DNA of 47,271 bases from a virus. A program made the translations under genes and the position numbers. The stretch spans positions 1-47,271 of the IMG/VR virus record IMGVR_UViG_3300007609_001592. The stretch is one strand, 5' to 3'. This document shows positions 13,074 to 47,271 of this stretch, one piece after another. Each line of letters starts with the position of its first letter. Within the stretch, counting starts at the first letter, position 1. Under the pieces are notes generated by a model. That model was given only the letters and a program-made list of their open reading frames with translations, was not told where the DNA came from and did no database searches.

Positions 13074-14789
13074 ATGATAATAAGACAGTCCATACAACAA
13101 ACAACAGGAACAAGCAATGATGTAGTGCAAGCTTTTTACCAAAACATCTTTGTAAGATACACAGAAGTATCTATTACACCTGCTATATTTGATGTGCCTG
13201 AGTACACCACTCTTGGTGGCACAACAGATTACTATGGACAGGACCCTAAGGCTATATTTACAAATCTAGTAAAGCCTTTTATTAGGTTTAATTTTTCTGA
13301 AAACACATCCAGTTTCGGTAATAATGTAAAAATAATACATGACATATATAGGGTAGATTGGGAGAATTTCAAAATGGCTACTGGAAGGTTCAAGGTTGAG
13401 GGCGAGGAGAATGTTCAGAATCAAAATACTATTACCGAGACTATAGAGGAAACTGATGACAGCGGTAATGTTAGCAGGAAAACGATTACAAGAAATATTA
13501 CTGAGACAAAAAACACAGTTAGATCAAAAGATTCTTCTATTGGAGGTGATTCGTGTGATGTTAATAGTGAAGGCCAGACCATAGATACTTCAGCTCCAAT
13601 GGTTGATGATGCTAATATATTTGATTCCATGAAGGACTCTTATAGAGCGACAATTCAAGATCAGTTATCAGAACCAATATACACAATTACAGCAGATACA
13701 ACAGGTATTACTACAAGTGTATATGATTTTCAGCCAGATCAGTATATAAAAAATCTTGGTGACTTTAAGACAGAGCTATTTCAAGATCGTGCACAATACT
13801 TTGTTGATACAAGATTTGAGTTCAAATTTGCAACTCCTGAACTTAGTAATTTCATAACTATAAATGACAATGGAGATGTTGTTGATGGTACATATAGTGC
13901 TATAAAAACTGGAACTACAGAGACTACTGGAGGAACAATTGATAGAGGTGAGTTTGAAGGCATTTCGTTTAAAGGAGATGATTACTTTACATATTTTACT
14001 GTTCCAGATAAGCCAACATTTGAATATCCAACTCCAGAAGGACAAATAGATACATTCACTCCAGAAATATACTGGACAAACGGAGAGAATGATATTGATG
14101 AATATTTAGTTCAAGTTACATATAACACTGGAGATACTGCATTTACTGGAAGTGTGTTTTCTTATGTAGTTCCTAGATGTGACGAATTAAAAGAAGAGGC
14201 TACAAACATAAGCAAAAACTCAACTAACGATTTTGAAACCACAAAAACAATAAGAAAATATCAACTTTCTCTTAAGTCAAATAGCTGCGCACTTTATAGG
14301 GTTGGTAATGTTAAGACTATTACGAATATATTTGGCGTCAAACAGAATGTTGTCACCTTCTCTGATCACAAGCAGATATGTACTCAAATAGAACCTATTA
14401 GGTCATATGTGTTTGTTGAAAACGATAGCCCTTACGTAGAAGGTATAGCTGGCCTCACCAGCCCTCCTTCTCTAATCGCAGAAAACCCTCTTGGGGAGTA
14501 TGTACTTAGTGGAACAGTTTCTGGCTCTACTATAGAAGGAGCTACAATGCAGCTTATATATCCTAACGGAAGCTTTGTGACAACTCTGACTGATAGTGGT
14601 GGCACATTCTCATTCGACAGTCTTGAAGATGGTGAGTATACTCTTAATACAACATACAGAGGTTATGCATCAGATAGCAGAACTATCAATATTACTGAAG
14701 ACACTGGAGTATTCATAGAAATAGAAATAAGATGGGATAATGAATTTGATATTTGGGCTGTTAAAGAAAATGACATAATTAAATATTAA
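13074..14789 (+). CDS. Virion protein with C-terminal carboxypeptidase-regulatory-like beta domain, 571 aa
   Basis: The first 110 residues (MIIRQSIQQTTGTSNDVV onward) are of unknown type. A polar Thr-rich linker follows. A probable fibronectin-like segment lies around 305-350 (TPEIYWTNGENDIDEYLVQV). Residues about 475-555 form a CarboxypepD_reg/Cna-B-like beta sandwich: GTVSGSTIEGATMQLIYPNG, then GTFSFDSLEDGEYTLNTTYR. Such domains are common in tail fibres and surface-binding proteins and usually mediate binding or spacing. It starts 15 bases after the gpI-like gene without its own promoter-like element, so it is probably co-transcribed. A role at the tail tip or in host contact is inferred. 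Confidence 0.7.
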   Translation: MIIRQSIQQTTGTSNDVVQAFYQNIFVRYTEVSITPAIFDVPEYTTLGGTTDYYGQDPKAIFTNLVKPFIRFNFSENTSSFGNNVKIIHDIYRVDWENFKMATGRFKVEGEENVQNQNTITETIEETDDSGNVSRKTITRNITETKNTVRSKDSSIGGDSCDVNSEGQTIDTSAPMVDDANIFDSMKDSYRATIQDQLSEPIYTITADTTGITTSVYDFQPDQYIKNLGDFKTELFQDRAQYFVDTRFEFKFATPELSNFITINDNGDVVDGTYSAIKTGTTETTGGTIDRGEFEGISFKGDDYFTYFTVPDKPTFEYPTPEGQIDTFTPEIYWTNGENDIDEYLVQVTYNTGDTAFTGSVFSYVVPRCDELKEEATNISKNSTNDFETTKTIRKYQLSLKSNSCALYRVGNVKTITNIFGVKQNVVTFSDHKQICTQIEPIRSYVFVENDSPYVEGIAGLTSPPSLIAENPLGEYVLSGTVSGSTIEGATMQLIYPNGSFVTTLTDSGGTFSFDSLEDGEYTLNTTYRGYASDSRTINITEDTGVFIEIEIRWDNEFDIWAVKENDIIKY

Positions 14790-14795
14790 GAAGAC

Positions 14796-14803
14796 TATTT
14801 ATA
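14796..14803 (+). promoter_or_regulatory. TATTTATA late-promoter-like element
   Basis: The plus strand reads GACTATTTATAAGAAACTAA with 16 bases before the ATG at 14820. It lies just after the stop of the previous gene, so this gene may have its own late transcript. Confidence 0.6.
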
Positions 14804-14819
14804 AGAAACTAATTAAAAG

Positions 14820-15764
14820 ATGACTGGCGAATTAATACCTACTGGCATAACCTTCGGAACAGGGAGGAAATCTATAAACACTTCTTTTAGTGGAACTGCT
14901 GAATTGAATAATATTCAACTTGACCCAGGGGGTGATTTTTCTGGTGGTACTGGAGGTGGTGTCATCTACTCAGGTGGAACTGATCTTTATGACATATTTG
15001 GCTCAGGAGGTGGTTCTGGAGATATTACCAGAGTTCAGCCAGGAACTAACATCACAACTGGAGGTACTGCGAATTTACCGATCATAAGCTTGTCTGACGA
15101 TATTATAATAAATTCAATATCAGCAACAACAGTATCAGGAGGAACTATTTATTCTGGAGATACAAATCTTGAAAATATATTTTTAACTATTTCTAACACA
15201 AATTTTATACCACTTAGCGGTACAGATGGTGTTAATATTGTAACAGGGGATGTTGAATTTGATGATGACTTTGGGTTAACTTGGCACACTGGCTTAGATT
15301 CTATTGTATACGGAAGCGCAACAGGCTTAATAGAGGTGAACTCAAGTTTGGGGTTTGACTTCTCAACTGGAGCTATATTATCTGCAGGAACTGATTTATA
15401 TAGTATATTCTGCACTGATTGCAGTACAGGAACTACAGCTTCTGAAACAACATTTGACTTTAAAGCAGTTGGTGGGGCACTAGACTGGGATGTTGATGGA
15501 AGTTCTTTGAATGCTAAATTTGTAATTACCGCAAATACTACTTTAAATGTTGTTAATGTAAATTCTGGTGATTTTGGTACTCTTAAAATAACTCAAGATG
15601 TAGCTGGGGGTCATGAATTAACATTTGGTGTTGGTACACATAAAGTTGTGAATGGAGGTAGTGGTTCAGTATCACTTACATCAGCAGGAGGAGCAATAGA
15701 TGTTATATCATTCTTTTATGATGGAACCGAATTTTTATGGAGCCCAGGATATAATTATACTTAA
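14820..15764 (+). CDS. Tail-fibre-like virion protein with repeated '(Y/L)S.GT(D/N)L..IF' motif, 314 aa
   Basis: A Gly/Ser/Thr-rich protein with three copies of a short motif: IYSGGTDLYDIF (about 50-61), IYSGDTNLENIF (about 109-120) and ILSAGTDLYSIF (about 185-196). The spacing is irregular and polar beta-rich linkers separate the copies. The C-terminal 100 residues (FDFKAVGGALDWDVDGSS onward) form a beta-rich globular part ending in FLWSPGYNYT. The pattern fits an elongated trimeric fibre or fibre-tip protein. Direct receptor binding is an inference. It ends the plus-strand island and faces the convergent minus-strand gene ending at 16018. Confidence 0.7.
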   Translation: MTGELIPTGITFGTGRKSINTSFSGTAELNNIQLDPGGDFSGGTGGGVIYSGGTDLYDIFGSGGGSGDITRVQPGTNITTGGTANLPIISLSDDIIINSISATTVSGGTIYSGDTNLENIFLTISNTNFIPLSGTDGVNIVTGDVEFDDDFGLTWHTGLDSIVYGSATGLIEVNSSLGFDFSTGAILSAGTDLYSIFCTDCSTGTTASETTFDFKAVGGALDWDVDGSSLNAKFVITANTTLNVVNVNSGDFGTLKITQDVAGGHELTFGVGTHKVVNGGSGSVSLTSAGGAIDVISFFYDGTEFLWSPGYNYT

Positions 15765-16017
15765 TAGCAGTTGATGTGGGGTGAAAATTCACATTTTTAT
15801 ATAAACAACAAAAATAGGTGAAAGCTTTATCTTTTCAACTAATTCCGATAGAAGTGCCACACCTTACCCCATAGCAAGCATGTTATCAGGTAAAAGTTTT
15901 AGGCGGGACTTTGGAGGTGGGACTAGATCAATCGCTTCTGGCCCAACAAAAATTTACTCAGATTCAGGTGGTACAAAAATGTTCTACTTTCTTTTGATAG
16001 AGCTAAAAAAACAACCC
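15765..16017. other. 253-base convergent intergenic region, weak hairpin and doubtful short frame
   Basis: This is the largest non-coding gap in the window. Near its start ATGTG/CACAT with a following TTTTTAT could be a weak terminator for the fibre gene. A plus-strand frame from the ATG at 15880 runs to 16149 and would give 89 residues (starting MLSGKSFRRDFGGG), but its last third is antisense to the gene ending at 16018. The part before 16018 has some coding-like character. No RNA gene is evident. Confidence 0.3.
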
Positions 16018-16899
16018 TTAAAGAGTTCCTCCGTTGGCTATCTCAAAGAATGTTTGAGCATTATTAATACTTGTCCTCTGTTCTTTAATATCAACCTCTC
16101 CGCTACTGAACTGCTTCTTTCTAGTAAGAAGATTATATTGCCTAAATAAGTTTCCGTTTTCATCGAATATAGAATACACACCAGTCTCAAGGTCTCTTGT
16201 AGAATTACCATAAAGAGCATATGATAACGTCTTGATAGACTGGTCCACCATTTCAACCTCAACCATAACTGGGTCAAAAAAAGTGTTAGATAATAGTATT
16301 TCTTGACCAGATTTTCCGAGATCAGGACTTATCTCACTTGTAATAAGACTTACTTCATCTGGCGTAAGTGTTAGGAATAGTTGATTTCCGTTTGGGTCAA
16401 GCACATAATTTGTTGAACTTGCGTTAGATGTGTTGTTACTTGGGTTTACGCTAACTAAGTCTGAACTTGTAACAATTCTATGAAAATTTTTAATCTTATT
16501 ACCGTTGTCATCAAAATACTCAATTTGATAGCCTACAAGACTACCTGAACTCTGAAACTGGAGCTTTGGTATGATTATACCTTTTTTAGATAGCTGTATC
16601 TCCTGATCATTATTGGTAATAACAAATGAACAATCGACTATTTGCGTCTGAAATGTTTTTGGTCTAATTAGTATAGAATAAAAACCAAGTCTATTAAATA
16701 TTGATGCTGGAAGTCTTAACTTATAGGCTCCGTCCGCTCCAATCATTTTTCTAAGCTCATTGTTGGTAACCGTGTTGTACATCGGTTGAAACTGAGTGTC
16801 ACCGAGCGTTTCTCTGTCTGGAGCATATGAATATAGGATGTCAACATCATTAAAGTCAACATCAGCTAATTTAACCATTCCGTAAGTTCCTACTGCCAT
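16018..16899 (-). CDS. Hypothetical virion protein, 293 aa
   Basis: A soluble mixed protein without a recognisable family. It begins MAVGTYGMVKLADVDFND and contains repeated 'DDNGNKI', 'DPNGNQLF' and 'DENGNLFRQ' turns typical of beta-rich virion proteins. The start at 16899 follows an exact TATTTATA by 16 bases; an ATG seven bases upstream is out of frame and stops quickly. It stands alone: the next upstream gene ends at 16945 and the convergent fibre gene ends at 15764. Virion membership is inferred from the surrounding genes and the late-type promoter element. Confidence 0.65.
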   Translation of the reverse strand: MAVGTYGMVKLADVDFNDVDILYSYAPDRETLGDTQFQPMYNTVTNNELRKMIGADGAYKLRLPASIFNRLGFYSILIRPKTFQTQIVDCSFVITNNDQEIQLSKKGIIIPKLQFQSSGSLVGYQIEYFDDNGNKIKNFHRIVTSSDLVSVNPSNNTSNASSTNYVLDPNGNQLFLTLTPDEVSLITSEISPDLGKSGQEILLSNTFFDPVMVEVEMVDQSIKTLSYALYGNSTRDLETGVYSIFDENGNLFRQYNLLTRKKQFSSGEVDIKEQRTSINNAQTFFEIANGGTL

Positions 16900-20809: not shown

Positions 20810-23800
20810 TTAGATAATTTCAATGGGCAATCCTTGTAGTCCATCATTAAACGATTCTCCACCACATATTGAGGAAATGGGTGAGCCTTGAAATCTGATC
20901 GCAAACAACCCACCGTTATTATTTGTGTTTGGTGTTTTAAATAAAGCTCCATCCATTTTTACAGAACTTTCCCACTTACTTCCACTTCCCCCAAATGTAC
21001 CACTCGTATCACAACTTTGGTTGTTCTCATTGTATTGAGTTCTTAGGTTCGTATATATAGAAACCAGATAATAATTAGGAGGAGTAGTATCTGCAGCAAC
21101 TGCTGTAGAACCTATTGTATAGTCATAAAAAACAGAATGAGATGAAGGAGTCCAAGCAGAGCCATCATCTTTTCTGTGAGTAATGTTTATAAATCTCATT
21201 GTATAATTTGCAGTATTATATTTACTGGTTCCAAAATCAAAGTTAGAATTACCTGGTAATTCAATAACAAGATTATCCAACGCTATGTTTGTTGCATCGA
21301 ATACAAAAGATTCTCCAGGGGCTAATTCAACAGCCGTCCCTGGTATTAACACATCTATATTACCATTGTTAGTTATTTCAATTTGTAAAAACTGATAGTT
21401 TTGTGAGCCATGTATTCCTCCTACAGCTCTAGAAAAACATTCTTCTCTATCGTTAGGACCTGAGTTTTTAACTGCAGATTTAATCCTTCTAGTGTTGCCA
21501 CCTCTTTGGTAGTATATTGACTGAAATCTATAAACAGCAGATGTAGGAATAACTTCTGGTTCAATGTCATTTCTTTCCTTCGGATTAACCAGTCTATACA
21601 AATCAAGCGAGCCTTCTGAAAAAGTTGCATCATCATCTAGTGCAAGAGCTAAATCACGATCTTCGATATTGTAAACATCAATAAATTGATTTTGAGCACC
21701 GACAATTATACCCTGACCTTCCTCTCCCAAAGAAAGAACACCTGGACCAAAAGCAGAGCTAAGCGTTGTATTTGGAGCTACTGAAGGTGGAAATATTGCA
21801 TCTCCCCAAGGGTTTATAGAAATTGGCGGCCAACCTTCGGGCTTTAACCAGTATCCATACCCGCACTCTACTCTTTGATACTTCTCTCCATTTAATACAC
21901 TTGACGCCCCTGGGTCAATCGGGAAGGCTGGATTAGATGGTTCATAACCATTGGAATACTTTTCATTCCAAGCAACTCCTCTTTCGTATTTGTATATATA
22001 ACTCCTTGTTACTTCTTTTGAAAATCTATTTCTAATCCAGGCTGAATTTGTACTACTAAACTGAACTCCATAGCCTCCTGTATTGGCAGCACTATTTAAA
22101 AACAGAGGAAAACCTATTTCGTCACCATCTTTATACAAAGGCTGCTCTAAGAATGCGTTGTTGCTAGAGTTTGTAAGCCTTGTGTTAATATCTCCTCTGT
22201 CAAAATTTGGGTCAGATGGTCTTTCAGGAATTCTATATGGCTCTGGATAATTGTGGTCCCAAGGTCTGTCGTATGGCGGAGACACTAAAGGAGATACGGT
22301 AGTGTTTTTTCTATCTGAAAGCTCCCCTCTATTTAAGTGATAATGATCTCTACCCACCCATCCTGGTGACGAAAAACCCCAATCTCTTTGAAAGCCAGTT
22401 GTCCTAAATGTAGTAGAAGGCTGGTCGTAGTACATCTTCATCTGATAACCCGCAAGCCACACGCCTTTTTGCGAAGGGAAATTTATTGGAGCACCGTTTG
22501 CATTAGTTCTGTAACCATTAGGGTCATACATATTTGCACGAAGCTTAAATGCTTTAAATCCATGGTTGAAAAAACTTGCTCGTCTCTTAAGTTGTATAAA
22601 CTCACTCCCCCACTGAAGCGTTTGATCTTCGTCTTTATCATAAATGTCTTGTATTTCTACAATTGGAATATTGGTTGTGGGGAACCCTTCCTTAGACATA
22701 TCTCTCACATCAACATTAAGAGACGGAGCAAAATTTAAGAGTTCAGCAGAGCCTAACAAATTACCTTTATAAGCCATTGGTGCTACATAATAAGTAGCCC
22801 ACTTTCTAAGATCATAATTAACAGTAACATTCAACTCCGTGTATCCAGTCTGAGTATTCCCCCACGCAGGCACAACATCAATTGGAAATTGTTTAAATGA
22901 AAAACTAGGAACTGAATCCACTACAACATCATCACCAGTTCCTGGAGGAAATGGATAAAAATTAAGCGCTATTTCATCTTTAGTAAGCCCTTGCTTAAAC
23001 ATATCTACTTCAAACACAACAATCTGAGTTCCTATTGGAGCATCATAAATAATAAACTCTCCATTCTCATTTGTTGTAGTTACGTACTTATACTGATCTG
23101 GAACTGTTGTAAACTGAGATGCTGATCTTAAGTACTGAGTATCAGCGCTAAATGATTCTATGTTAAAATACTCGGAAGGGTTTGTGTTTTCTCTAAGATT
23201 AAGAAAAAGTCTGTCTCCATTTTCAGAAATAGACGAAGACGTTGGGTATTCTTCAGAGGGGTTGAATATGCCTATAGGAACATTCCTAAGAGGAATCTTT
23301 ATAGGGTTCCCTTCAATATCTTTTATTGTTTGAAGTGCTGTGAGTCTACCAAACACAACTCCTGTATCAGCTTCTTGAGTTGGTATACTATTAACTAAAT
23401 TGTTATAAATGTCTAGTGTATCAAGCGTTCCATAACTTCTGTTTAGCTTTACATTCACAAAGAAATCATCAATCTCTTGGTAATTAGAAAACACGAACTC
23501 ACAATGCCAAGGCGTAGTTGTTGACACAGAATTTGGCTGTATCGCCAGAGTTCCACTACCATTAGGGTCAAGCGCACTTACTCCTCCATTGGGAGAGAGA
23601 ACTGTCTGAATAGCTTTAGTTAAGCCTGACTCAATCTGCCTAATCCTTTCTTCTTCAATAATTGTAGAATAATCCTCAGTATAAGAATATCCAGTTAAAT
23701 AATTATTAGTATATGAGGTGACAGGCACATAGTTGTTGTCGTCATTAAGAGTCCATATGTTTTCGCCATCAAAAGTGGAAGCTCTAACTGGTTGATTAAG

Positions 23801-23956
23801 AGAATTAAGCTCTACTATGGTTGGAGATATATTGGTAGAGTTTTCATCAATACTGTTAGTATTTTGGACGTATACATCTAAGTGTGTACTAAAGTACATT
23901 AGAGTGGTGCCGCTAGTAAACTGCTTTAACTGTATCTCTTCCCTTTCAAAACTCAT
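20810..23956 (-). CDS. Giant virion structural protein, 1048 aa
   Basis: The largest virion gene in the window. The N-terminal 110 residues include a charged helix (TIIEEERIRQIESGLTKAIQ). A central beta-domain motif reads TTTNENGEFIIYDAPIGTQI, and then comes a region unusually rich in Pro, Trp and Tyr (SPPYDRPWDHNYPEPYRIPE, 20 residues of a longer run). The C-terminal 250 residues contain a possible beta sandwich (ITNNGNIDVLIPGTAVELAP). It follows the gp6-like gene after a terminator. Its position behind gp25/gp6-like genes suggests a baseplate or tail-tip component, but I recognise no family. Confidence 0.7.
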   Translation of the reverse strand: MSFEREEIQLKQFTSGTTLMYFSTHLDVYVQNTNSIDENSTNISPTIVELNSLNQPVRASTFDGENIWTLNDDNNYVPVTSYTNNYLTGYSYTEDYSTIIEEERIRQIESGLTKAIQTVLSPNGGVSALDPNGSGTLAIQPNSVSTTTPWHCEFVFSNYQEIDDFFVNVKLNRSYGTLDTLDIYNNLVNSIPTQEADTGVVFGRLTALQTIKDIEGNPIKIPLRNVPIGIFNPSEEYPTSSSISENGDRLFLNLRENTNPSEYFNIESFSADTQYLRSASQFTTVPDQYKYVTTTNENGEFIIYDAPIGTQIVVFEVDMFKQGLTKDEIALNFYPFPPGTGDDVVVDSVPSFSFKQFPIDVVPAWGNTQTGYTELNVTVNYDLRKWATYYVAPMAYKGNLLGSAELLNFAPSLNVDVRDMSKEGFPTTNIPIVEIQDIYDKDEDQTLQWGSEFIQLKRRASFFNHGFKAFKLRANMYDPNGYRTNANGAPINFPSQKGVWLAGYQMKMYYDQPSTTFRTTGFQRDWGFSSPGWVGRDHYHLNRGELSDRKNTTVSPLVSPPYDRPWDHNYPEPYRIPERPSDPNFDRGDINTRLTNSSNNAFLEQPLYKDGDEIGFPLFLNSAANTGGYGVQFSSTNSAWIRNRFSKEVTRSYIYKYERGVAWNEKYSNGYEPSNPAFPIDPGASSVLNGEKYQRVECGYGYWLKPEGWPPISINPWGDAIFPPSVAPNTTLSSAFGPGVLSLGEEGQGIIVGAQNQFIDVYNIEDRDLALALDDDATFSEGSLDLYRLVNPKERNDIEPEVIPTSAVYRFQSIYYQRGGNTRRIKSAVKNSGPNDREECFSRAVGGIHGSQNYQFLQIEITNNGNIDVLIPGTAVELAPGESFVFDATNIALDNLVIELPGNSNFDFGTSKYNTANYTMRFINITHRKDDGSAWTPSSHSVFYDYTIGSTAVAADTTPPNYYLVSIYTNLRTQYNENNQSCDTSGTFGGSGSKWESSVKMDGALFKTPNTNNNGGLFAIRFQGSPISSICGGESFNDGLQGLPIEII

Positions 23957-39781: not shown

Positions 39782-40306
39782 TTATTTTATATTAGAAACC
39801 CAGTCTTTAAGAGATTTTTCTCTATTAACAGAATAAAATATTTCATACTGAAGTTCGAACCAACTGTGGTAGTTCTTGATCATTTCTACCATCTTAGCCT
39901 TGGTCCAAGAATATGGATTCAGGTTTTCATCTTCACTATTATTTCTAAATTTAGAATTAACAGAATATATAAGCTTAGCGTTGTTTTTTAGACAATATCT
40001 GACAACCTCAGAAGTTCCAAGTAAATTTGATTTCATCACATAATCTCTATCATCAAAACTATCATTATCTTTTGAATATTCTCCAAAGTGAAAAACTATA
40101 TCTGGATTAAAATCTCTTGTTGTTATAATTCTATTTACATCCCAGGTATTCATCTCTAAAAGAACCATTCCATCTGCTTTATTTTCTTTTTTTCCTGTAG
40201 AATAATTATCAATTCCTAAAATTTCCCAACCAGGATGAGTTTCTTGAATATGGTGAATTAATTTACTTCCAATAGAGCCTGCTGCTCCAGTTACTAATAC
40301 TTTCAT
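39782..40306 (-). CDS. Shortened NAD-dependent epimerase/dehydratase (extended SDR), 174 aa
   Basis: A typical extended-SDR N-terminus: VLVTGAAGSIGSKLI with the GxxGxxG NAD loop at 7-13, GIDNYSTGKKEN after the second strand (D33), and DIVFHFGEYSKD. The catalytic YxxxK is present as YSWTK at about 132-136. The protein stops about 35 residues later, so most of the C-terminal substrate domain of a 310-340 residue UDP-glucose 4-epimerase-type enzyme is missing. It may bind NAD without complete activity, or be a decayed gene. Its ATG overlaps the stop of gmd (TAATG), and it is the last gene of the glycan operon. Confidence 0.75.
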   Translation of the reverse strand: MKVLVTGAAGSIGSKLIHHIQETHPGWEILGIDNYSTGKKENKADGMVLLEMNTWDVNRIITTRDFNPDIVFHFGEYSKDNDSFDDRDYVMKSNLLGTSEVVRYCLKNNAKLIYSVNSKFRNNSEDENLNPYSWTKAKMVEMIKNYHSWFELQYEIFYSVNREKSLKDWVSNIK

Positions 40307-41397
40307 TATTCGTTTTCTAAATCGTGTTTAACCATTCTCTCAACAAGCTCGTCAAGATCAATTTTCGCCTCCCAGCCAAGCTTACTCTTAGCTTTACTTG
40401 GGTCTCCGATTAGTCGATCTACTTCTGCTGGTCTAAAATAATTAGGGTCAACCTCAACTATAAGCTTACCAGTCTTCTTGTCGTATCCTTTTTCTTCTTC
40501 TCCTTCACCTTTCCACTCAATTTCCCATCCAAGGTGTTTAGCAGCCATCTCGATGAATGTACGAACCTTATAAGTCTTTCCAGTTGCTAGAACAAAATCT
40601 TCTGGCTTATCTTGCTGAAGCATTCTCCACATCCCCTCAACATATTCCTGAGCATGTCCCCAGTCTCTCTCTGCCTCCATGTTACCAATTTTTAAGACAT
40701 CACGCTTACCCTTCTTTACCTGAGCAAGATTAGTTGTGATCTTTCTGGTAACAAAAGTCTTTCCTCTTCTCTCGCTCTCATGATTAAAGAGTATGCCGTT
40801 GCATGCAAACAGGTTATATGACTCACGGTAGTTCTTGATAATCCAAAATCCATATAACTTTGCAACTCCATATGGAGAGCGTGGGTGGAATGGCGTATTC
40901 TCATCATACATTCCCTCGTTATTCTTATTGTACTGCATTCCTCCGTATAGCTCAGAGGTTGATGCCTGGTAAAACTTAGCTTTGGGGCAGTGAGCTCTCA
41001 TAGCCTCTAAGATTGTAAGAGTACCAAGTGCATCTACACTAGCTGTGTAGTGAGGAACCTCAAAAGATACTGCAACATGTGATTGTGCAGCAAGGTTATA
41101 AATTTCATCTGGCTGAACTTCAGCTATAAGCCTCATAATATTTGAAGGGTCTGTAACATCCCCATGATGAAGATGAAGACGCTCATGGTCCATAATGTGC
41201 TCAATTCTATCGGTATTGAAGGTTGACGCTCTTCTCATTGTAGCGTGTACAGTATAACCCTTGTCTAACAGGAGCTCTGCCAAATAAGAGCCATCCTGCC
41301 CTGTGATTCCTGTTATAAATGCTGTTCTTTTCATCTTAGAAGAAAGTGGTGTGAAGGGGAAATTTCTCGTCTCCGTGTTATTTAAAAGCTCACTCAT
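40306..41397 (-). CDS. gmd: GDP-mannose 4,6-dehydratase
   Basis: It converts GDP-D-mannose to GDP-4-keto-6-deoxy-D-mannose. All hallmarks are present: [87 protein letters not shown] with the YxxxK pair, [11 protein letters not shown] and [10 protein letters not shown]. At 363 residues it matches the family except for about 21 extra N-terminal residues before MKRTAFITG; the longer start is kept because its ATG overlaps the preceding stop (TAATG). It stands directly behind the ColD-like gene and two genes from the fucose-synthase-like gene, so its product can feed both. It needs host-made GDP-mannose. Confidence 0.96.
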
Positions 41398-42584
41398 TAC
41401 TTAATTGCGTCAATTACTGTTTTACAAATAAACTCGATCTCTTCTGCTCCCATCTTTGGGTGATTAGGAACATAGATGCCGCATTCATCTACTGTTGCAG
41501 CATTAAGAGTTTCGTGTCTTCCATATCTCTTTACGAAGAATGGCTGAGTTCCCATTGAGCCGCAAATAAGCGGTCTACACTCAACATCGTTTTCAATAAG
41601 CGCCTTAACAGCTTTTTCCTTTTGCTTCTTTGTCTGGAATATCATTGGGTAGCAGAATGATGCTGTAAATGAATCCTCATGCTCTGTGGGTCTCCATATT
41701 TTTTTCTTCTTATCCATCTTCTTCATTGTATCAAAGAAGTGATAAAGATTTTCATTTCTCTTGTCAATCCACTCATCAATCTTATCAAGCTGACGGATTC
41801 CTATAACAGCCTGAAGGTCTGTTGATCTTAAATTAAAACCTGGCTCATAGAATGTGTATAGAGCGGAAAAGTCATCAGTCCCCCACTGATCTCTAAGTTT
41901 ATCCTGAACACCCTCATCAAGGTCTCTATCCCATCCGTGGCTTCTAAGCATAACAAGAAGATCATATACTTCCTTGTCATTTGTACATACCATACCACCT
42001 TCAATGGTGCTCATGGTGTGTCCGAAATAAGTTGAGAACGAAGACATAAGCCCAAAGTTACCAAGCTTCTTTCCTTGGAACTCGGTTCCCTGTGATTCAC
42101 AGTTATCTTCAAGTAGAGTGACTCCATGCTTCTTGCAAAGCTCTACGATCTTATCCATATCTGGAGAAAGCCCCAGAACAGAAACTAAAATCATTGCAGA
42201 AGGCTTATGGTATTTGAATATACTTTCAAGTTGGTCTACGTCAACAGCGAGATTATTGAGGTTACAGTCAACAATTAGCGGCTCAAATCCTAGCTGAAGC
42301 ACTGGTGCCATATCTGTTGCCCAAGCTAGAGCTGGCACAACAACTTTATCATTCTTTAGGTTGCCCATTACTTTGAGTGCATAAAGCATAAGTAAGTTGG
42401 CTGATGAACCAGAATTTACAAATACAGAGTATTCGCTTCCAATCCATTTAGACCACTTTTCTTCGAATTCAAGAGTCTTAGGCCCTTTAGTAAGTCTTGG
42501 GTAGGTTTTAAGCCATTCGATGAGGTTGTCTACATCATCCTTATCAATGGTATCTTTTACAAGTGTAATTTTTTCTTTGGACAT
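41397..42584 (-). CDS. PLP-dependent GDP-4-keto-6-deoxymannose 3-dehydratase-like enzyme (ColD-type)
   Basis: A fold-type I sugar-modifying protein of the DegT/DnrJ/EryC1 family: [14 protein letters not shown] (57-70) at the PLP phosphate site, [13 protein letters not shown] with D160 under the pyridine ring, and [19 protein letters not shown] at 181-199. Where aminotransferases have the PLP lysine this protein has H189. The same Lys-to-His change defines ColD and the E1 dehydratase, which remove the C3 hydroxyl instead of transaminating. Next to gmd, whose product is the ColD substrate, ColD is the better fit; no ferredoxin-type E3 reductase or E1 [2Fe-2S] context is seen. Predicted product: GDP-4-keto-3,6-dideoxy-D-mannose. 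A palindrome sits just before its ATG. Confidence 0.82.
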
Positions 42585-42626: not shown

Positions 42627-43550
42627 TCAAGCCTTTTTTTTCCAGTGTTGACTTAAAATTGAATATGTTGATGCAATGCCGTGATAAAGCCTGGTAGGCT
42701 TGAAGCCTTTTACTAAACTTTTCATCTTTTCACACGATACATCTTTTCTAAATTGACCGTCTGGCTTGGAGCTATCGTATTCTATTTTAAGGTGGTTAGC
42801 ATCGCACGCTCTAAGTGCAACTCTAGCTATATCATCAATTGATAGGTTCTGATCTGTAGCAACGTTAAAGCTATCGTAAATATCTTCATCTAAGCACTCC
42901 TTAATAACTGCTGCTAGGTCTCCAGAGTACATAAACTGTCTTAATGGCCTGCCTGTTCCAAATAGAGTAATTTTGTCATCTCCGTAAAGTTTTGCAGCAT
43001 GTATCTTTTTGATCAGAGCCGCAACGAAGTGGCTATTCTCTCCAAACTTGTCAAACTCTCCATATAGATTGCATGGAGTTAGGTATTGATATTTAGTGTT
43101 GTATTGCTTGTTATATGCGTCAATTTGAACGGCTAAAGATCGCTTTGCATATCCGTATGAGAAGTTAGTAGGTGTTGGTGGCCCCTGGTGGAGCATATCC
43201 TCTGTCATAGGATATTCGCTAACTTTATCTGGATATATGCATGTACTAAGAACTCCTATAAACCTTTGAACGTTGTGGTATCTTGCATACTCTACAAGAA
43301 GAGTGTTCATTAAAACATTGTCTGTAAAATATTCTCCAGGCTTATTGATATTATCAATGATGCCTCCAACTTTAGCAGCCAAGTGAATAACTACATCTGG
43401 CTTAAGTTCTTGATACATTTGTGCAACACCTCTTTCAGATGTTAGGTCATAATCCTTAGAAGAAAGATATATTGCCTCTGGCATAATCTTCTGAAGTGAT
43501 CTTCCGACCATTCCAGAACCTCCTGTTACTACTATTTTATTATAATTCAT
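42627..43550 (-). CDS. GDP-L-fucose synthase / GDP-L-colitose synthase-like epimerase-reductase
   Basis: An extended SDR of the WcaG/Fcl family, 307 residues: VVTGGSGMVGRSLQ (NADPH loop), HLAAKVGGI at 56-64, LSTCIYPDKV with S102 and C104, and YGYAK at 132-136 (YxxxK). In Fcl the Ser, Tyr and Lys plus Cys109/His179-type residues carry out 3,5-epimerisation and 4-reduction of GDP-4-keto-6-deoxymannose. The close relative ColC acts the same way on the 3-deoxy product of ColD to give GDP-L-colitose. As ColD- and Gmd-like genes follow directly, ColC is the preferred role, but fucose synthase cannot be excluded by eye. Its start overlaps the end of neuA-HAD. Confidence 0.85.
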   Translation of the reverse strand: MNYNKIVVTGGSGMVGRSLQKIMPEAIYLSSKDYDLTSERGVAQMYQELKPDVVIHLAAKVGGIIDNINKPGEYFTDNVLMNTLLVEYARYHNVQRFIGVLSTCIYPDKVSEYPMTEDMLHQGPPTPTNFSYGYAKRSLAVQIDAYNKQYNTKYQYLTPCNLYGEFDKFGENSHFVAALIKKIHAAKLYGDDKITLFGTGRPLRQFMYSGDLAAVIKECLDEDIYDSFNVATDQNLSIDDIARVALRACDANHLKIEYDSSKPDGQFRKDVSCEKMKSLVKGFKPTRLYHGIASTYSILSQHWKKKA

Positions 43551-44548
43551 TCTATATCTTTTAAAAAGTCATCTATATTATTCCACCAATCTTTTGAATT
43601 CATATTCTTATCGTCTATAAAAAGATCGTATGCAGGCTTCCCCATTTTTAGCTCATGATACTTAGCTCCCCACCTTTCAAGTTGAAACTTTGTGACATCC
43701 GTCCAATCAATACCAGTAACAGTACCTCTTGCGGTCCAATACACTATTGTATAGCCACTATCGTATAACTCATTCGCCTTTGCTATAGCTTCTCTAATGG
43801 GTGTTGCATCTGAATAATGCTTTGATTTGCTGTTACAAATAGTTTCATCAATATCAATATATATAGTACGACCCTTTGCTTTGCTTTTTATTTTAGACTC
43901 TACTAACTCCCAGTCACTAGGCTCATCAATTTCTACATAAGTATCTTCGCTCATAACATAACTTCCATAGCTAGGTCCACTAAGCCTACATTTGTCTTTT
44001 TTGATGTTACCTATTGAATTAATATATATAGCTCCGTTCTCAATATATTCTGGAAAAAACTCTTGTCTTCTAGGCCTGCTTTGAGGGTTATAGTTTTGTG
44101 GCTCAAATTCGCCACTATCATTCTGAGCCCATGTAAACCTTTTACTTTCAACAACACTAAGAAGAGAGGAGAATTCTTTCTTTCTATATTTAGAAAGCGC
44201 CCCTTTAATATCTTCCGATATTGTTAGTGGAGATGTTGCTTGTAGTAGTATAAAAACATCATCATCTGATAGCCCAGAAAATTCAATATACTCAAGCATA
44301 ACTGACTCTGTTGTTGCTTCATCTGTAGATACTTCTTCTGATCTGCTGTGTATTTCTATATCTGGGAAAAACTTTATAGCTAGGTCCGCATATTCGTGCG
44401 AATCAGTTGATAAGACTACTTTATCTACCCCAGAGCTATAAGCAGCCTTTGTAACCCAGTAAAACAAAGGCTTTCCACACAAGTCTTTAATATTCTTGTC
44501 TGGTATTGATTTAGAACCCTTTCTTATTGGTATAAACGCTACAGTCAT
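43547..44548 (-). CDS. CMP-nonulosonate synthetase (NeuA-like) fused to a HAD phosphatase-like domain
   Basis: Residues 1-222 are a CMP-acylneuraminate synthetase: AFIPIRKGSKSIPDKNIKDL, the diagnostic nucleotide-binding motif, then STDSHEYAD, LLQATSPLT and VMSEDTYVEIDEPSDWELVE. It would activate a nine-carbon sugar with CTP. Residues about 228-333 are a HAD domain: TIYIDIDETIC with the two Asp of motif I, VYWTARGT and GKPAYDLFIDDKNM. This resembles BcbF-type capsule phosphatases rather than the KDO8P-phosphatase-like domain fused to animal CMAS. One polypeptide could thus dephosphorylate a 9-phosphate and activate the sugar. The start overlaps the NeuB stop by one base; GAGGAG in the end of neuB may serve as its Shine-Dalgarno sequence. 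Confidence 0.85.
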   Translation of the reverse strand: MTVAFIPIRKGSKSIPDKNIKDLCGKPLFYWVTKAAYSSGVDKVVLSTDSHEYADLAIKFFPDIEIHSRSEEVSTDEATTESVMLEYIEFSGLSDDDVFILLQATSPLTISEDIKGALSKYRKKEFSSLLSVVESKRFTWAQNDSGEFEPQNYNPQSRPRRQEFFPEYIENGAIYINSIGNIKKDKCRLSGPSYGSYVMSEDTYVEIDEPSDWELVESKIKSKAKGRTIYIDIDETICNSKSKHYSDATPIREAIAKANELYDSGYTIVYWTARGTVTGIDWTDVTKFQLERWGAKYHELKMGKPAYDLFIDDKNMNSKDWWNNIDDFLKDIE

Positions 44549-45387
44549 TACTCTCCTCTTAAACTTTTTCTTTTAGATAACTCACCTCCCATACACTTTC
44601 TTTCTCCGTAGCCTCCAAGAGAGTTTTCAATACCTCTAACGCCTTTTACTAGCTTAATAAGCCCAGAAGGCTCAACAGATGACTTCTGATCTGAACCCCA
44701 CATTTCTCTATTAAGAGTAACGTGACGCTCAATCCATTCAGCTCCAAGAGGTATTGTTGCAAAAGTGGTCACAAGACCATACTCATGACCTGAATATCCT
44801 ATTTGCTTGTTTGGGTACTTTTCCTTAAGCCAGGTTATGTATCCTAAGTTGAGTTCTTCTACTGGAGTTGGGTATGTTGAATTTGTGTGAAATACAATGT
44901 CTGGGTCACAAAGTTTAATGGCCTTCTCAATCTCTCCTTCATTACTCATACCAGTTGAAATCATAAGCACATCTGATTTATCTCTAGCATAAGAAATTAA
45001 TTCATCTTCCGTAATAAGAGCAGAAGGAATTTTCATAACAGACTTTCCTTCTGAATTCTTATATTTACTCATAAAGTCCACAGAGTCTTTGTCCCATACA
45101 GACGCAAACCACTCAATACCAATATCTTTACAAAATCTGTCGATCTCGTCATATTCTTCCTTACCAAATTCTATCTTGTACTTATATTCAAGATAAGTCA
45201 TATCTCCCCATGGAGTAGATTTAGGCTTAGACTTTTGCTCCTCTGGAACGCAAACGTCTGGATTTCTCTTTTGAAACTTCACATGAGTACAGCCTGCTAC
45301 ATTAGCCAGCTGTATTAATCTCTTAGCAGTATCAACATTTCCATTATGATTTATTCCTATCTCAGCTATTATCTTTGTCTTCTTCAT
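44548..45387 (-). CDS. neuB: Nonulosonate synthase (NeuB family) without the SAF domain
   Basis: It condenses phosphoenolpyruvate with an N-acyl mannosamine-type sugar to a sialic-, legionaminic- or pseudaminic-like acid. Motifs in order are KIIAEIGINHNGNVDTAKRL, THVKFQKR, WFASVWDKDS, KIPSALITEDEL, ISTGMSNEGEIEKA, HTNSTYPTP, IGYSGHEYG and WIERHVTLNREMWGSDQ. I use the ATG at 45387 (MKKTKIIAE); the frame is open 16 codons further but lies within the previous gene. The 279 residues cover only the TIM barrel. The usual C-terminal antifreeze-like (SAF) domain, about 70 residues, is absent. In known NeuB that domain covers the partner's active site, so activity must differ or be helped by another protein. 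Confidence 0.9.
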   Translation of the reverse strand: MKKTKIIAEIGINHNGNVDTAKRLIQLANVAGCTHVKFQKRNPDVCVPEEQKSKPKSTPWGDMTYLEYKYKIEFGKEEYDEIDRFCKDIGIEWFASVWDKDSVDFMSKYKNSEGKSVMKIPSALITEDELISYARDKSDVLMISTGMSNEGEIEKAIKLCDPDIVFHTNSTYPTPVEELNLGYITWLKEKYPNKQIGYSGHEYGLVTTFATIPLGAEWIERHVTLNREMWGSDQKSSVEPSGLIKLVKGVRGIENSLGGYGERKCMGGELSKRKSLRGE

Positions 45388-46117
45388 ATCTATTAAATTT
45401 ACCTTTTTTAAGACCCTCGTACCTAGCTTTATCATTGAGGTTTATTATCTCAATTCCAAGTTTTTCTGCAGAATCACTTATGATCTTAGCCTGCTTCCCA
45501 AACAGGGTTCTATACTTTGAAATGTCATCATGAATTTCAAGCTTAGAGTTATCAACATAACCAGTTCCATAATCCATATCAATCCCGCTAATATAAACTG
45601 GATTACATCCAAGTATTACGGCAAGAGCAAGCATATGAATACCTACGGTTCCAGCTCCAGAGTATCTTTCTTCATTTCCGCTGATATGCTTTAAATACTC
45701 CTGTATAGTCTTTCTACCTGGGTCCGCATGCTTACAGCAAGGGTTGTTTCTAAGGCATTTGTTGCCACCTTGATGTCTCTCATCAAAAGGAAGATAATCA
45801 ATTTTTAAATTATTATCAACAAATTCCTTATCTGTAAGATCAACAGAATCAGCATATATCAAAATCTTATTCTTGTTATTGAATGCATTATAATTCTTTT
45901 CAACAGTAAAAGTATTGTTAGCCATGACCCAATAATCAGCGTCAATCTTAGTTTTACTAAACCATCTATTGCAAGAAATAAAGCAGTATTTATCTTTTTG
46001 TGTTTTGCTTAAATTTTCAAACTCATCAGCATAGTCCTTGAGGGAACCTCCAAGACCACAGACAATTCCTATCTTGCCTTTTTCTTTTTCTAATATGTCA
46101 TCAAAATCAAGTTTCAC
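45362..46117 (-). CDS. GT42/DUF115-like protein, candidate nonulosonate transferase, 251 aa
   Basis: The N-terminal strand-loop IGIVCGLGGSLKDYADEF and SCNRWFSKTKIDADYWVM resemble the nucleotide-binding start of DUF115 and GT42 proteins ('g.GPSL...', then 'CN..f'). The motif YSGAGTVGIHMLALAVILGC and NPVYISGIDMDYGTGY match the 'SGv....A..lGyk.IyLsGiD' stretch of Campylobacter sialyltransferase CST and of Maf-type proteins that attach nonulosonic acids. A Cys/His cluster (C121, C127, C128, H130) is unusual. The GT42 catalytic 'GHS' is not seen. It begins with GTG overlapping the previous stop and ends within the NeuB gene, so it is co-translated with the sugar synthase. Confidence 0.6.
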   Translation of the reverse strand: MKLDFDDILEKEKGKIGIVCGLGGSLKDYADEFENLSKTQKDKYCFISCNRWFSKTKIDADYWVMANNTFTVEKNYNAFNNKNKILIYADSVDLTDKEFVDNNLKIDYLPFDERHQGGNKCLRNNPCCKHADPGRKTIQEYLKHISGNEERYSGAGTVGIHMLALAVILGCNPVYISGIDMDYGTGYVDNSKLEIHDDISKYRTLFGKQAKIISDSAEKLGIEIINLNDKARYEGLKKGKFNRYEEDKDNS

Positions 46118-46779
46118 TATTTTATAATATAAGATGGTGTATGATAATAATTCAGCTTCTTAATTTCAATGTTTTTGTTCTTAAAAAATTCATCAACAGC
46201 TCTAGTTTCTCCTTCAACGGTCCCATAATCATCAAGGACTAAAATTCCACCTGGAACCAGCCTATCCCAAAATGTTTCTAATATAACTTTTGTAGGCTCA
46301 TACACATCTACATCAATATGAATCATTGAAAGTTTGAGTTCAGGTCTATTTTTTAAGTACTCCATTGAAGTTTTGCAAATATCCCCTTTAACAAGGTCAA
46401 AGTTATTTGTTCCTTTGGCTTTAAGAAGTTTTGTTAACTCTTCTTTACCTACTCCATAACCTCCATTATGTTCAAAATCTTCTACAAATTCTTTATCACT
46501 TTCCATGGATAGGTCTTTCGGAAATTCCCCAAATGCATCAAATCCAATAATTCTTCTTGATGAGCTATTTTCAAAAAGGTCTCTGAATGATATAAATCTT
46601 ATTAGGGAAGTAGCTTTATATACACCAAATTCAGCAACATCCCCAGGTAATTCGCTTATCATTTTATATAGCTCAAGATGAGATATAAACTTACCAATCC
46701 TACCTGTCTCACAAGTTAAATAAAAGCCGTTTTCATATTCCCACTTTTTATCAATATCTACTTTATAATTATCTGACAT
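46117..46779 (-). CDS. SAM-dependent O-methyltransferase, TylF/MycF type
   Basis: The first motif VAEFGVYKATSLIRFISF is the family's SAM-binding loop. Next are IIGFDAFGEFPKD, FDLVKGDI, then the metal-binding MIHIDVDVYEPTKVILETFW and GGILVLDDYGTVEGETRAV. These are the hallmarks of TylF/MycF-type class I methyltransferases, which O-methylate sugars in antibiotics and surface glycans, and the 220-residue length fits. The place in a glycan operon suggests it caps a hydroxyl on one of the deoxysugars or the nonulosonate. It lies three bases after the GT11-like gene and overlaps the next gene (TAGTG). The acceptor is unknown. Confidence 0.85.
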   Translation of the reverse strand: MSDNYKVDIDKKWEYENGFYLTCETGRIGKFISHLELYKMISELPGDVAEFGVYKATSLIRFISFRDLFENSSSRRIIGFDAFGEFPKDLSMESDKEFVEDFEHNGGYGVGKEELTKLLKAKGTNNFDLVKGDICKTSMEYLKNRPELKLSMIHIDVDVYEPTKVILETFWDRLVPGGILVLDDYGTVEGETRAVDEFFKNKNIEIKKLNYYHTPSYIIK

Positions 46780-46782
46780 AAC

Positions 46783-47271
46783 TTATATTTTTATCCAACC
46801 ATCACAGTATAGGTCTTTAAGATCATTGTTGGCATAGGCAGGTCCAAACCACTTCTCTGGAGCTACTACTATCTTGTTTTCATTATCATTAAGCCATGCG
46901 GCCCACCAAGAAAAACTTGAATTTGCTATCACATTATGATCACACAATGTCATCATAGCAAAATCTTCAACATCACTTTGCCCTTCTATAATGAAGAACT
47001 TTTCTCCTATCGCTGGAAAATTTGCATTGCACCATTCTGTATCATCAGAAAACACCAAGAATATAGCATTCTTTGGAAACTTCTTTGTTGCCTTCATAAA
47101 ATAGTTCATATCAAGAACTGGATGATGCTGAGGGTGATTGAGATAATCCCCTCTTCTTAGGTGTACAGCAACAACTGGAACGTCCCTGCTAAGTAGATCA
47201 TCATTTTTTTTATTAATGATACCGCGACCACCTAGACCTACACCAGGCCGTACACTCTTTCCCACCACGAC
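46783..47271 (-). CDS. GT11 fucosyltransferase-like protein, 5' end outside the window
   Basis: The frame is open to the right edge (a GTC codon precedes the first possible GTG start at 47268), so the 5' end is missing; GT11 enzymes are normally about 280-300 residues. Motifs of alpha-1,2-fucosyltransferases are clear: VVAVHLRRGDYLNHPQHH (the H.RRGDY GDP-binding motif), FLVFSDDTEWCNANFP, DFAMMTLCDHNVIANSSFSW followed by WAAWLN, and VVAPEKWFGPAY. The enzyme would transfer L-fucose or a related GDP-6-deoxyhexose. As the operon encodes a GDP-colitose-type route, colitose is a plausible donor sugar. Confidence 0.85.
   Translation of the reverse strand, partial: VVVGKSVRPGVGLGGRGIINKKNDDLLSRDVPVVAVHLRRGDYLNHPQHHPVLDMNYFMKATKKFPKNAIFLVFSDDTEWCNANFPAIGEKFFIIEGQSDVEDFAMMTLCDHNVIANSSFSWWAAWLNDNENKIVVAPEKWFGPAYANNDLKDLYCDGWIKI

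Follow-up and report, generated by a model that had tools for sequence, protein, structure and literature searches.

The viral record IMGVR_UViG_3300007609_001592 (G000; 47,271 bases, analysed over its full length and referred to below as the window) carries tail and DNA genes, with PHROG matches to a baseplate wedge protein, an SbcC-like nuclease, a primase and a DNA transfer protein, and has at its right end a sugar cassette in which every gene lies on the minus strand. Three consecutive genes of this cassette are the subject of this work: one for a GT42/Maf/DUF115(MptE)-fold protein of 251 amino acids (aa), a probable nonulosonate transferase by predicted structure and profile (45362..46117, hereafter the third protein); one for a NeuB-family synthase of 279 aa that consists of the barrel only, without SAF domain (44548..45387; PF03102, 9.4e-60); and one for a fused protein in which a NeuA (CMP-nonulosonate cytidylyltransferase) domain (residues 1-222; 43883..44548; CTP_transf_3, 1.7e-23) is followed by a small HAD phosphatase domain (residues about 227-331; 43556..43870; phrog_1238, 9.9e-27). 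The gene for the third protein runs from a GTG at 46117, which overlaps the stop of the upstream methyltransferase gene by one base, to a stop at 45362. The NeuB start, an ATG at 45387 picked by alignment with relatives in an open frame that extends back to 45435, lies 26 bases inside it; one base is common to the NeuB stop and the NeuA start (TAATG), and four bases are common to the NeuA-HAD stop and the following Fcl-like gene. A first-pass annotation had located a module of three mutually overlapping genes here, and its coordinates and overlaps are borne out, with consecutive overlaps of 1, 26, 1, and 4 bases from the methyltransferase through the third protein, NeuB and NeuA-HAD to Fcl; this arrangement argues for co-translation of the cassette genes.

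The NeuB barrel is matched by PF03102 at 202.5 bits (cut-off 22.1), and modeling of the full barrel gave a mean predicted local distance difference test score (pLDDT) of 94.8 with a last helix at residues 267-276. In NeuB of Neisseria meningitidis the barrel continues at its C-terminus into the SAF domain. Model residues 1-279 align to residues 17-292 of the 348 in that enzyme (2wqp, Z 32.8), and both the model and the alignment end the phage chain at the linker helix ahead of the SAF position, as had been read from the sequence in the first pass; the window NeuB has no C-terminal SAF or antifreeze-protein-like domain to supply the active-site Arg. Excerpts of PMC6795526 likewise place the SAF domain in the part that follows the aligned barrel. 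The possibility that the SAF domain is encoded by a separate gene nearby found no support: PF08666 matched nothing in the window (E<=1), and a search of 45 related viral records (E<=0.001) was likewise negative, many of these records being fragments in which absences may reflect missing sequence. The scores of NeuB against equivalog models lie below their cut-offs (TIGR03569, 189.3 against 399.65; TIGR03586, 142.8 against 340.25), and no curated NCBIfam cut-off that would name the sugar type was reached by NeuB, NeuA, or HAD.

Viral relatives were collected by one contig scan with a four-sequence alignment, which yielded 373, the best 80 of which were fetched. Addition of L002-L004 gave 83 loci, from which L060, with a NeuB frame split in two, was dropped; the 82 loci retained and the window make up 83 rows, 61 of them distinct at under 90% identity. 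A scan of named genomes returned at least 536 relatives, the best 80 of which were used, and L005, a Moritella record, served as an SAF row. All counts are based on six-frame open reading frames (ORFs) and profiles built for this analysis, and a NeuB was classed as SAF-less when it was no longer than 360 aa and had a tail of at most 15 residues. No SAF match was found in the 82 phage loci counted or, after reduction of the phage set (drawn from the best 80 of 373 viral relatives) to distinct sequences, in any of the resulting 61. The best 80 of at least 536 genome relatives, which span Bacteroidota, Chloroflexota, Ignavibacteriota, Actinomycetota, archaea, and other groups, gave none either; these genome rows are the most similar relatives, and SAF absence is claimed for them and not for every relative. 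Members of a large NeuB clade normally have no SAF domain, and what is seen here is not a local truncation. The missing domain reported by the first-pass annotation is real, while the view of it as a loss peculiar to this phage does not stand.

A tree of the barrel columns only, built by a quick method from 36 of the 61 phage rows, 48 of the 84 other SAF-less rows, and all 24 SAF rows, separated the 24 SAF-bearing rows from the 84 SAF-less ones included, phage and other together, by a branch with an SH-aLRT of 99, with a warning from the program of long branches among the SAF rows; 34 of the 36 phage rows grouped with three bacterial or archaeal rows. A Lys-Arg pair, K40-R41, is present in 61/61 phage and 84/84 bacterial or archaeal SAF-less rows as opposed to 4/24 SAF rows, and may be the reader of a substrate phosphate. 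Two of those four SAF rows, L212 and L213, are the only ones of the 24 with an adjacent HAD. The window NeuB carries the whole signature of the SAF-less clade (barrel-only length, K40-R41, GHE, and a C-terminal LR).

The catalytic residues are intact: E9, K37, K119, Y172, S199, H201, and H222 are invariant in all 61 distinct phage NeuB rows, and those active-site residues given in excerpts of PMC6795526 that could be placed on the phage NeuB by eye (E9, K119, Y172, S199, H201, and E220) are kept in at least 23 of the 24 SAF rows and in every SAF-less row. Near the C-terminus, E269, L276, and R277 are also invariant in the 61 phage rows; R277 is found in 100% of the 84 other SAF-less rows and in 13 of the 24 SAF rows. 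At the position of Asn184, another active-site residue given in PMC6795526, 60 of the 61 phage rows and all other SAF-less rows have Ser. The same excerpts name Arg314 as the sole SAF residue directly in the NeuB active site, suggest that this arginine may help position the N-acetyl group, and describe Kdo8P synthase as being without SAF domain, which fits an SAF-less enzyme that would grip a phosphate instead. Residue 27, the putative counterpart of a human residue said to govern Kdn use, is mostly V/A/I/L in phages, which is too weak a signal to build on.

Several relatives depart from the simple NeuB gene. An SAF-less NeuB at L078:6004-7527 is extended by about 230 residues, methyltransferase-like by eye, to 507 aa in all; a second, shorter NeuB paralogue (~245 residues) lies near the main NeuB at L061:4577-5323, L016:8406-9140, and L034:3994-4722 (Pfam checked for L061 only); and at bacterial L212:4932-6608 and L213:5807-7486 a NeuB-like domain is fused to an apparent sugar nucleotidyltransferase (by eye), beside the SAF-bearing K-R NeuB and a KdsC-like HAD.

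In the fused protein, CTP_transf_3 matches residues 4-134 at 84 bits (cut-off 22.6), and the best curated model of the NeuA domain, TIGR03584 (PseF), scores 99.9 bits, below its cut-off of 205.7. The C-terminal HAD domain claimed in the first pass was confirmed by phrog_1238 and by the HAD superfamily motifs, namely the DxDxT nucleophile (D232, D234, T236; 72/72 rows, comprising 70 phage rows, the window, and the Flavobacteriales bin L086) and the later K304 (71/72) and D313 (70/72). Its nearest PDB chain is 9iqw, a "capsule biosynthesis protein" (4.7e-10); the model for the EcbF/BcbF capsule phosphatase, TIGR01689, gave 22.9 against a cut-off of 162. A KdsC-like profile built here does not detect the phage HAD, and no ORF was matched by both HAD profiles. 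The label of phrog_1238 in PHROGs, "phosphoheptose isomerase," is at odds with the DxDxT motif of the window HAD (43556-43870). Phages mostly have the HAD as a separate gene of about 100 residues, and it lies within a much longer frame in 4 of 70 phage HAD rows (L046, L051, L067, L076); at L076:6826-7539 it is joined to a cupin domain, and at L046:7533-9449 it sits between methyltransferase and glycosyltransferase domains. Another NeuA-HAD fusion of the window's kind was found in none of the 60 other distinct phage NeuB loci and in none of the 44 loci of a HAD-led search.

The phosphatase is a frequent companion of the SAF-less synthase. Within 6 kb of NeuB in the 61 distinct phage loci we found HAD in 51, NeuA in 48, and a GT42-like gene in 27, with NeuB, NeuA, and HAD together in 39; a phage-type HAD lay within this distance in 50 of the 60 loci other than the window. 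Sixty-three of the best 80 genome relatives also have a HAD within 6 kb, as a NeuA fusion (26), as a neighbour (36) or, in the Flavobacteriales bin only, as the phage type, so that cellular SAF-less NeuBs mostly pair with a KdsC-type HAD, a different family from the smaller phage HAD. One such KdsC-like HAD, beside the bacterial SAF-less NeuB L106, has as its best PDB match chain 3e81 (1.1e-33), labeled acylneuraminate cytidylyltransferase, which we take to be the Kdn-9-phosphate phosphatase of Bacteroides thetaiotaomicron. In a draw from the phylum of G001, 22 of 26 SAF-less NeuBs had a HAD no more than 300 bp away, compared with 2 of the 19 that bear SAF (Fisher 7e-7). These counts omit ten loci from six genomes reached through the analysis's own matches, and four multi-domain or odd ORFs, two of which have a HAD within 5 kb, were classed separately as "other"; restoring the six genomes gives 25/32 and 2/23, with five "other." A test of K40-R41, fixed beforehand and run on two further draws (31 NeuB ORFs in 29 loci, seed genomes excluded), found a HAD within 300 bp of 6 of 9 K-R NeuBs and of none of the 22 others (Fisher 1.1e-4), all six positives being NeuA-HAD fusions.

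The AlphaFold model of the third protein (pLDDT 87.2) was matched over the whole domain in VIA-align to Maf (5mu5, Z 15.6 over 204 residues), MptE (8sd5, 13.1 over 177), CstII (1ro8, 12.3 over 186), and CstI (2p2v, 11.5 over 201), with animal GT29 enzymes at Z about 9, a result that upholds the earlier likeness to sialyl- and Maf-type transferases and adds MptE to it. A profile of 24 phage sequences, the window's included, matches nine GT42 sequences (CstI, CstII, Pasteurella) at 5e-9 to 1.4e-6 and ranks GT42 chains first, with Maf at 0.03 and MptE at 0.17; the GxGxS, Asn, and GxD motif positions of the GT42/Maf family also align. Foldseek ranked MptE first, with no GT42 chain among the best 50 matches listed, and the Pfam scores lie under the cut-offs for both MptE-like/DUF115 (33.2 against 34.6 bits) and CST-I of GT42 (16.7 against 25 bits). 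Queried with the third protein, tblastn of named phages gave no match at E<=0.01, and viral contigs scanned with it as the only query yielded no confirmed relative; its relatives were taken from NeuB neighbourhoods. On its predicted structure, the protein belongs to the GT42/Maf/DUF115 fold group and is a probable nonulosonate transferase, for which the neighboring NeuA suggests a CMP-nonulosonate donor. Two further loci add weight to the transferase reading. In the bacterial ORF L214:4968-6488 (minus strand) an apparent GT42/DUF115-type N-terminal domain, unnamed by Pfam at E<=0.01 and the best match of the phage third-protein profile in the set searched (4.3e-6), is fused to a barrel-only NeuB, and in the 484-kb phage LR756508.1 (L003) a GT29 protein (PF00777, 1.6e-26) adjoins an SAF-less NeuB. 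At L003:11247-11879 and 13978-16068 the latter phage has this GT29 sialyltransferase-like protein and three further ORFs in tandem that share its VGNSG-type motif (by eye).

The cassette as a whole reads GT11, TylF methyltransferase, third protein, NeuB, NeuA-HAD, Fcl-like, DegT aminotransferase, Gmd, and a short SDR (short-chain dehydrogenase/reductase). Upstream of the three genes are a GT11 fucosyltransferase truncated at the window end (46783..47271; PF01531 1.8e-32, profile positions 156-296 of 298) and a TylF-like sugar O-methyltransferase (46117..46779; PF05711 5.8e-15); downstream are a GDP-L-fucose-synthase-like epimerase/reductase (42627..43550; PF01370 2e-45; NF047922 204 bits, below the cut-off of 500), a DegT-type sugar aminotransferase (41397..42584; PF01041 1.7e-69), and a GDP-mannose 4,6-dehydratase, Gmd (40306..41397; TIGR01472 511 bits, above the cut-off of 415). 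The best curated model of the aminotransferase is RfbH, while PseC (202.9 bits) and LegC (136.4 bits) are both far below their cut-offs. No acetyltransferase or UDP-sugar hydrolase was named in a scan confined to ten proteins of the cassette. Elsewhere in the window, large proteins of 678-1048 aa at 10575-13058, 20810-23956, and 8405-10441 have no Pfam (E<=0.001) or PHROG (E<=1e-5) match.

Taken together, we put at about 0.6 the probability that the three genes act as one compact unit to make, activate, and transfer a nonulosonic (sialic-like) sugar by way of a 9-phosphate. NeuB would condense phosphoenolpyruvate (PEP) with a 6-phosphorylated sugar of the host to a nonulosonate-9-phosphate, the HAD domain would cleave the phosphate from this product, the NeuA domain of the fused protein would activate the free sugar with cytidine triphosphate to a CMP-sugar, and the GT42/Maf-fold protein would move it to a glycan or protein, perhaps on the virion or the host surface, with the neighboring genes adding fucose (Gmd, Fcl, GT11) and a methyl group. 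The make-activate-transfer unit suggested in the first pass is supported in this respect. The substrate would most simply be mannose-6-phosphate, leading to Kdn-9-phosphate, with N-acetylmannosamine-6-phosphate (ManNAc-6-P) possible. Mannose-6-phosphate fits best because it is a common host metabolite and because a NeuC-like UDP-GlcNAc (uridine diphosphate N-acetylglucosamine) 2-epimerase is present in only 6 of the 45 related viral records and is not in the window; for the latter reason, most of the related viruses may draw the aldose from the host. Precedents are found in excerpts of two papers, in which an algal synthase makes Kdn-9-P from mannose-6-P (PMC6200933) and a NeuB-phosphatase fusion of Leptospira is proposed to follow an animal-like route (PMC3438082).

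A number of observations weigh against this pathway. Animal NANS, as described in part of PMC13214540, has an antifreeze-type domain and yet uses ManNAc-6-P, so the presence of an SAF domain does not bar a phosphate route. Ten of the 61 distinct phage loci showed no HAD within 6 kb, nor did 17 of the best 80 genome relatives; the cases of HAD linkage share ancestry, such that the p-values overstate independence, and five of the six K40-R41 positives come from one phylum draw and are not independent events. The SAF-bearing L206, L208, L235, and one L240 enzyme have K-R with no HAD within 5 kb, and L226 is K-R and SAF-less without a HAD on its short contig. Six NeuB-like bacterial ORFs (L229-L231, L248-L250) have no SAF match, K-R, or HAD, which indicates that the clade, and not mere SAF absence, tracks HAD. 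In some phages the same small HAD also adjoins a different NeuB paralogue, one that matches the SAF profile weakly (L255, L257), and in the HAD-led search 27 of 43 HAD-positive loci were without NeuB within about 4 kb (16 had one). The phage HAD is therefore not specific to nonulosonates and looks like a general sugar-cassette phosphatase, which weakens the 9-phosphate step; the earlier suggestion that it removes a 9-phosphate draws indirect support from the linkage of SAF-less NeuB and HAD in cells, but its occurrence in phages without NeuB keeps that role putative. Furthermore, the fold relatives of the third protein include the pterin kinase MptE.

The frequent occurrence of the HAD without NeuB is also a point in favor of a different, though unlikely, explanation, in which NeuB is an ordinary phosphate-free synthase whose C-terminal helix and Arg277 replace the SAF arginine, and the HAD serves another sugar of the cassette, in a GDP-fucose, perosamine-like, or heptose branch. 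The presence of Gmd, Fcl, and the DegT aminotransferase would supply such branches, and the invariance of L276 and R277 across phages, with R277 in every other SAF-less row, would suit a substitute arginine. R277 is, however, also present in about half of the SAF rows and so does not in itself distinguish NeuBs that are without SAF; the HAD that accompanies SAF-less NeuBs in cells belongs to another family and is often part of a NeuA fusion; and the Lys-Arg pair found clade-wide is left unexplained.

The DegT gene, two places downstream of the three genes, bears on a further alternative that we consider improbable, namely that a nucleotide-linked 4-amino sugar is the starting point from which the unit makes a pseudaminic- or legionaminic-type product, the aminotransferase being part of the pathway. 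The similarity of the DegT protein to PseC and LegC speaks in favor, together with PseF as the best curated model of NeuA, but all of these scores are far under the curated cut-offs, the aminotransferase is closest to RfbH and adjoins Gmd, fitting a GDP-perosamine-like branch, and the cassette proteins scanned include no named acetyltransferase or UDP-sugar hydrolase. It is less probable still, to a degree that we regard as slight, that these are decayed or mosaic genes of a lipopolysaccharide (LPS) island without a working pathway. The window has no NeuC-like gene to form the aldose, in a record that may be a fragment; against decay, the catalytic residues are intact, the frames are open and overlapping, the folds of NeuB and the third protein are confidently modeled, and NeuB, NeuA, and HAD recur jointly in 39 of the 61 distinct phage loci.

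The proposed 9-phosphate pathway resembles several known systems in its parts. Wang et al. are said to have described in 2008 a Kdn-9-P synthase, a phosphatase, and a CMP-Kdn synthetase in B. thetaiotaomicron; the phage differs in using another HAD family, fused to NeuA. Campylobacter CstI and CstII (GT42) and Magnetospirillum Maf have a fold in common with the third protein, in which the family motif positions align, although its score is under the Pfam CST-I cut-off. The closest solved structure to the phage NeuB is the Leptospira sialic acid synthase 6ncs (Z 34.1, 30% identity, PDB chain of 290 residues), and for L. interrogans a phosphatase domain, described as endonuclease-like, has been proposed on the synthase C-terminus (excerpt of PMC3438082), whereas the phage HAD is fused to NeuA. 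The animal NANS/NANP/CMAS route, from ManNAc-6-P through the 9-phosphate of N-acetylneuraminic acid (Neu5Ac) and free Neu5Ac to CMP-Neu5Ac, has the same logic of synthase, phosphatase, and cytidylyltransferase, and vertebrate CMAS also has a C-terminal phosphatase module (by a title cited in the part of PMC13214540 consulted), as the phage NeuA has its HAD. The animal synthase is unlike that of the phage in its antifreeze-type domain (same source), and the phage HAD, for which the substrate is putative, is smaller and of a different family, with an intact DxDxT.

A title-level search of the open-access literature returned, among the matches listed, none on a phage nonulosonate pathway or on the linkage of SAF-less NeuB and HAD. 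Each part has known kin, while none of those titles deals with this linkage, its spread in phages, or the joining of NeuA to a HAD of a different class. Counts of neuB and neuA in viromes have been tabulated (in part of PMC3877843), and a global survey of viral metabolic genes excluded contigs with LPS islands (in part of PMC11360552), so such pathways may be undercounted.

More tentatively, and on balance doubtfully as a general statement, many phages may carry an animal-type 9-phosphate pathway from mannose-6-phosphate and PEP to CMP-Kdn by SAF-less NeuB, HAD, and NeuA, with the sugar placed on the virion or the infected cell by GT42-like or even GT29 (animal-family) transferases; the phosphatase-activation fusion of the present phage would then parallel vertebrate CMAS with a different HAD class. 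Our data connect the lack of SAF, as seen across one large clade of NeuBs, with a phosphatase partner in both cellular genomes and phages. This linkage leads to a prediction of which members of the NeuB family act on phosphorylated substrates, and of two residues that may recognize the phosphate. The results further suggest that phages could display sialic-like sugars for which all the metabolites come from the host, a possibility relevant to the masking of receptors, to superinfection exclusion, and to glycosylation of the virion.

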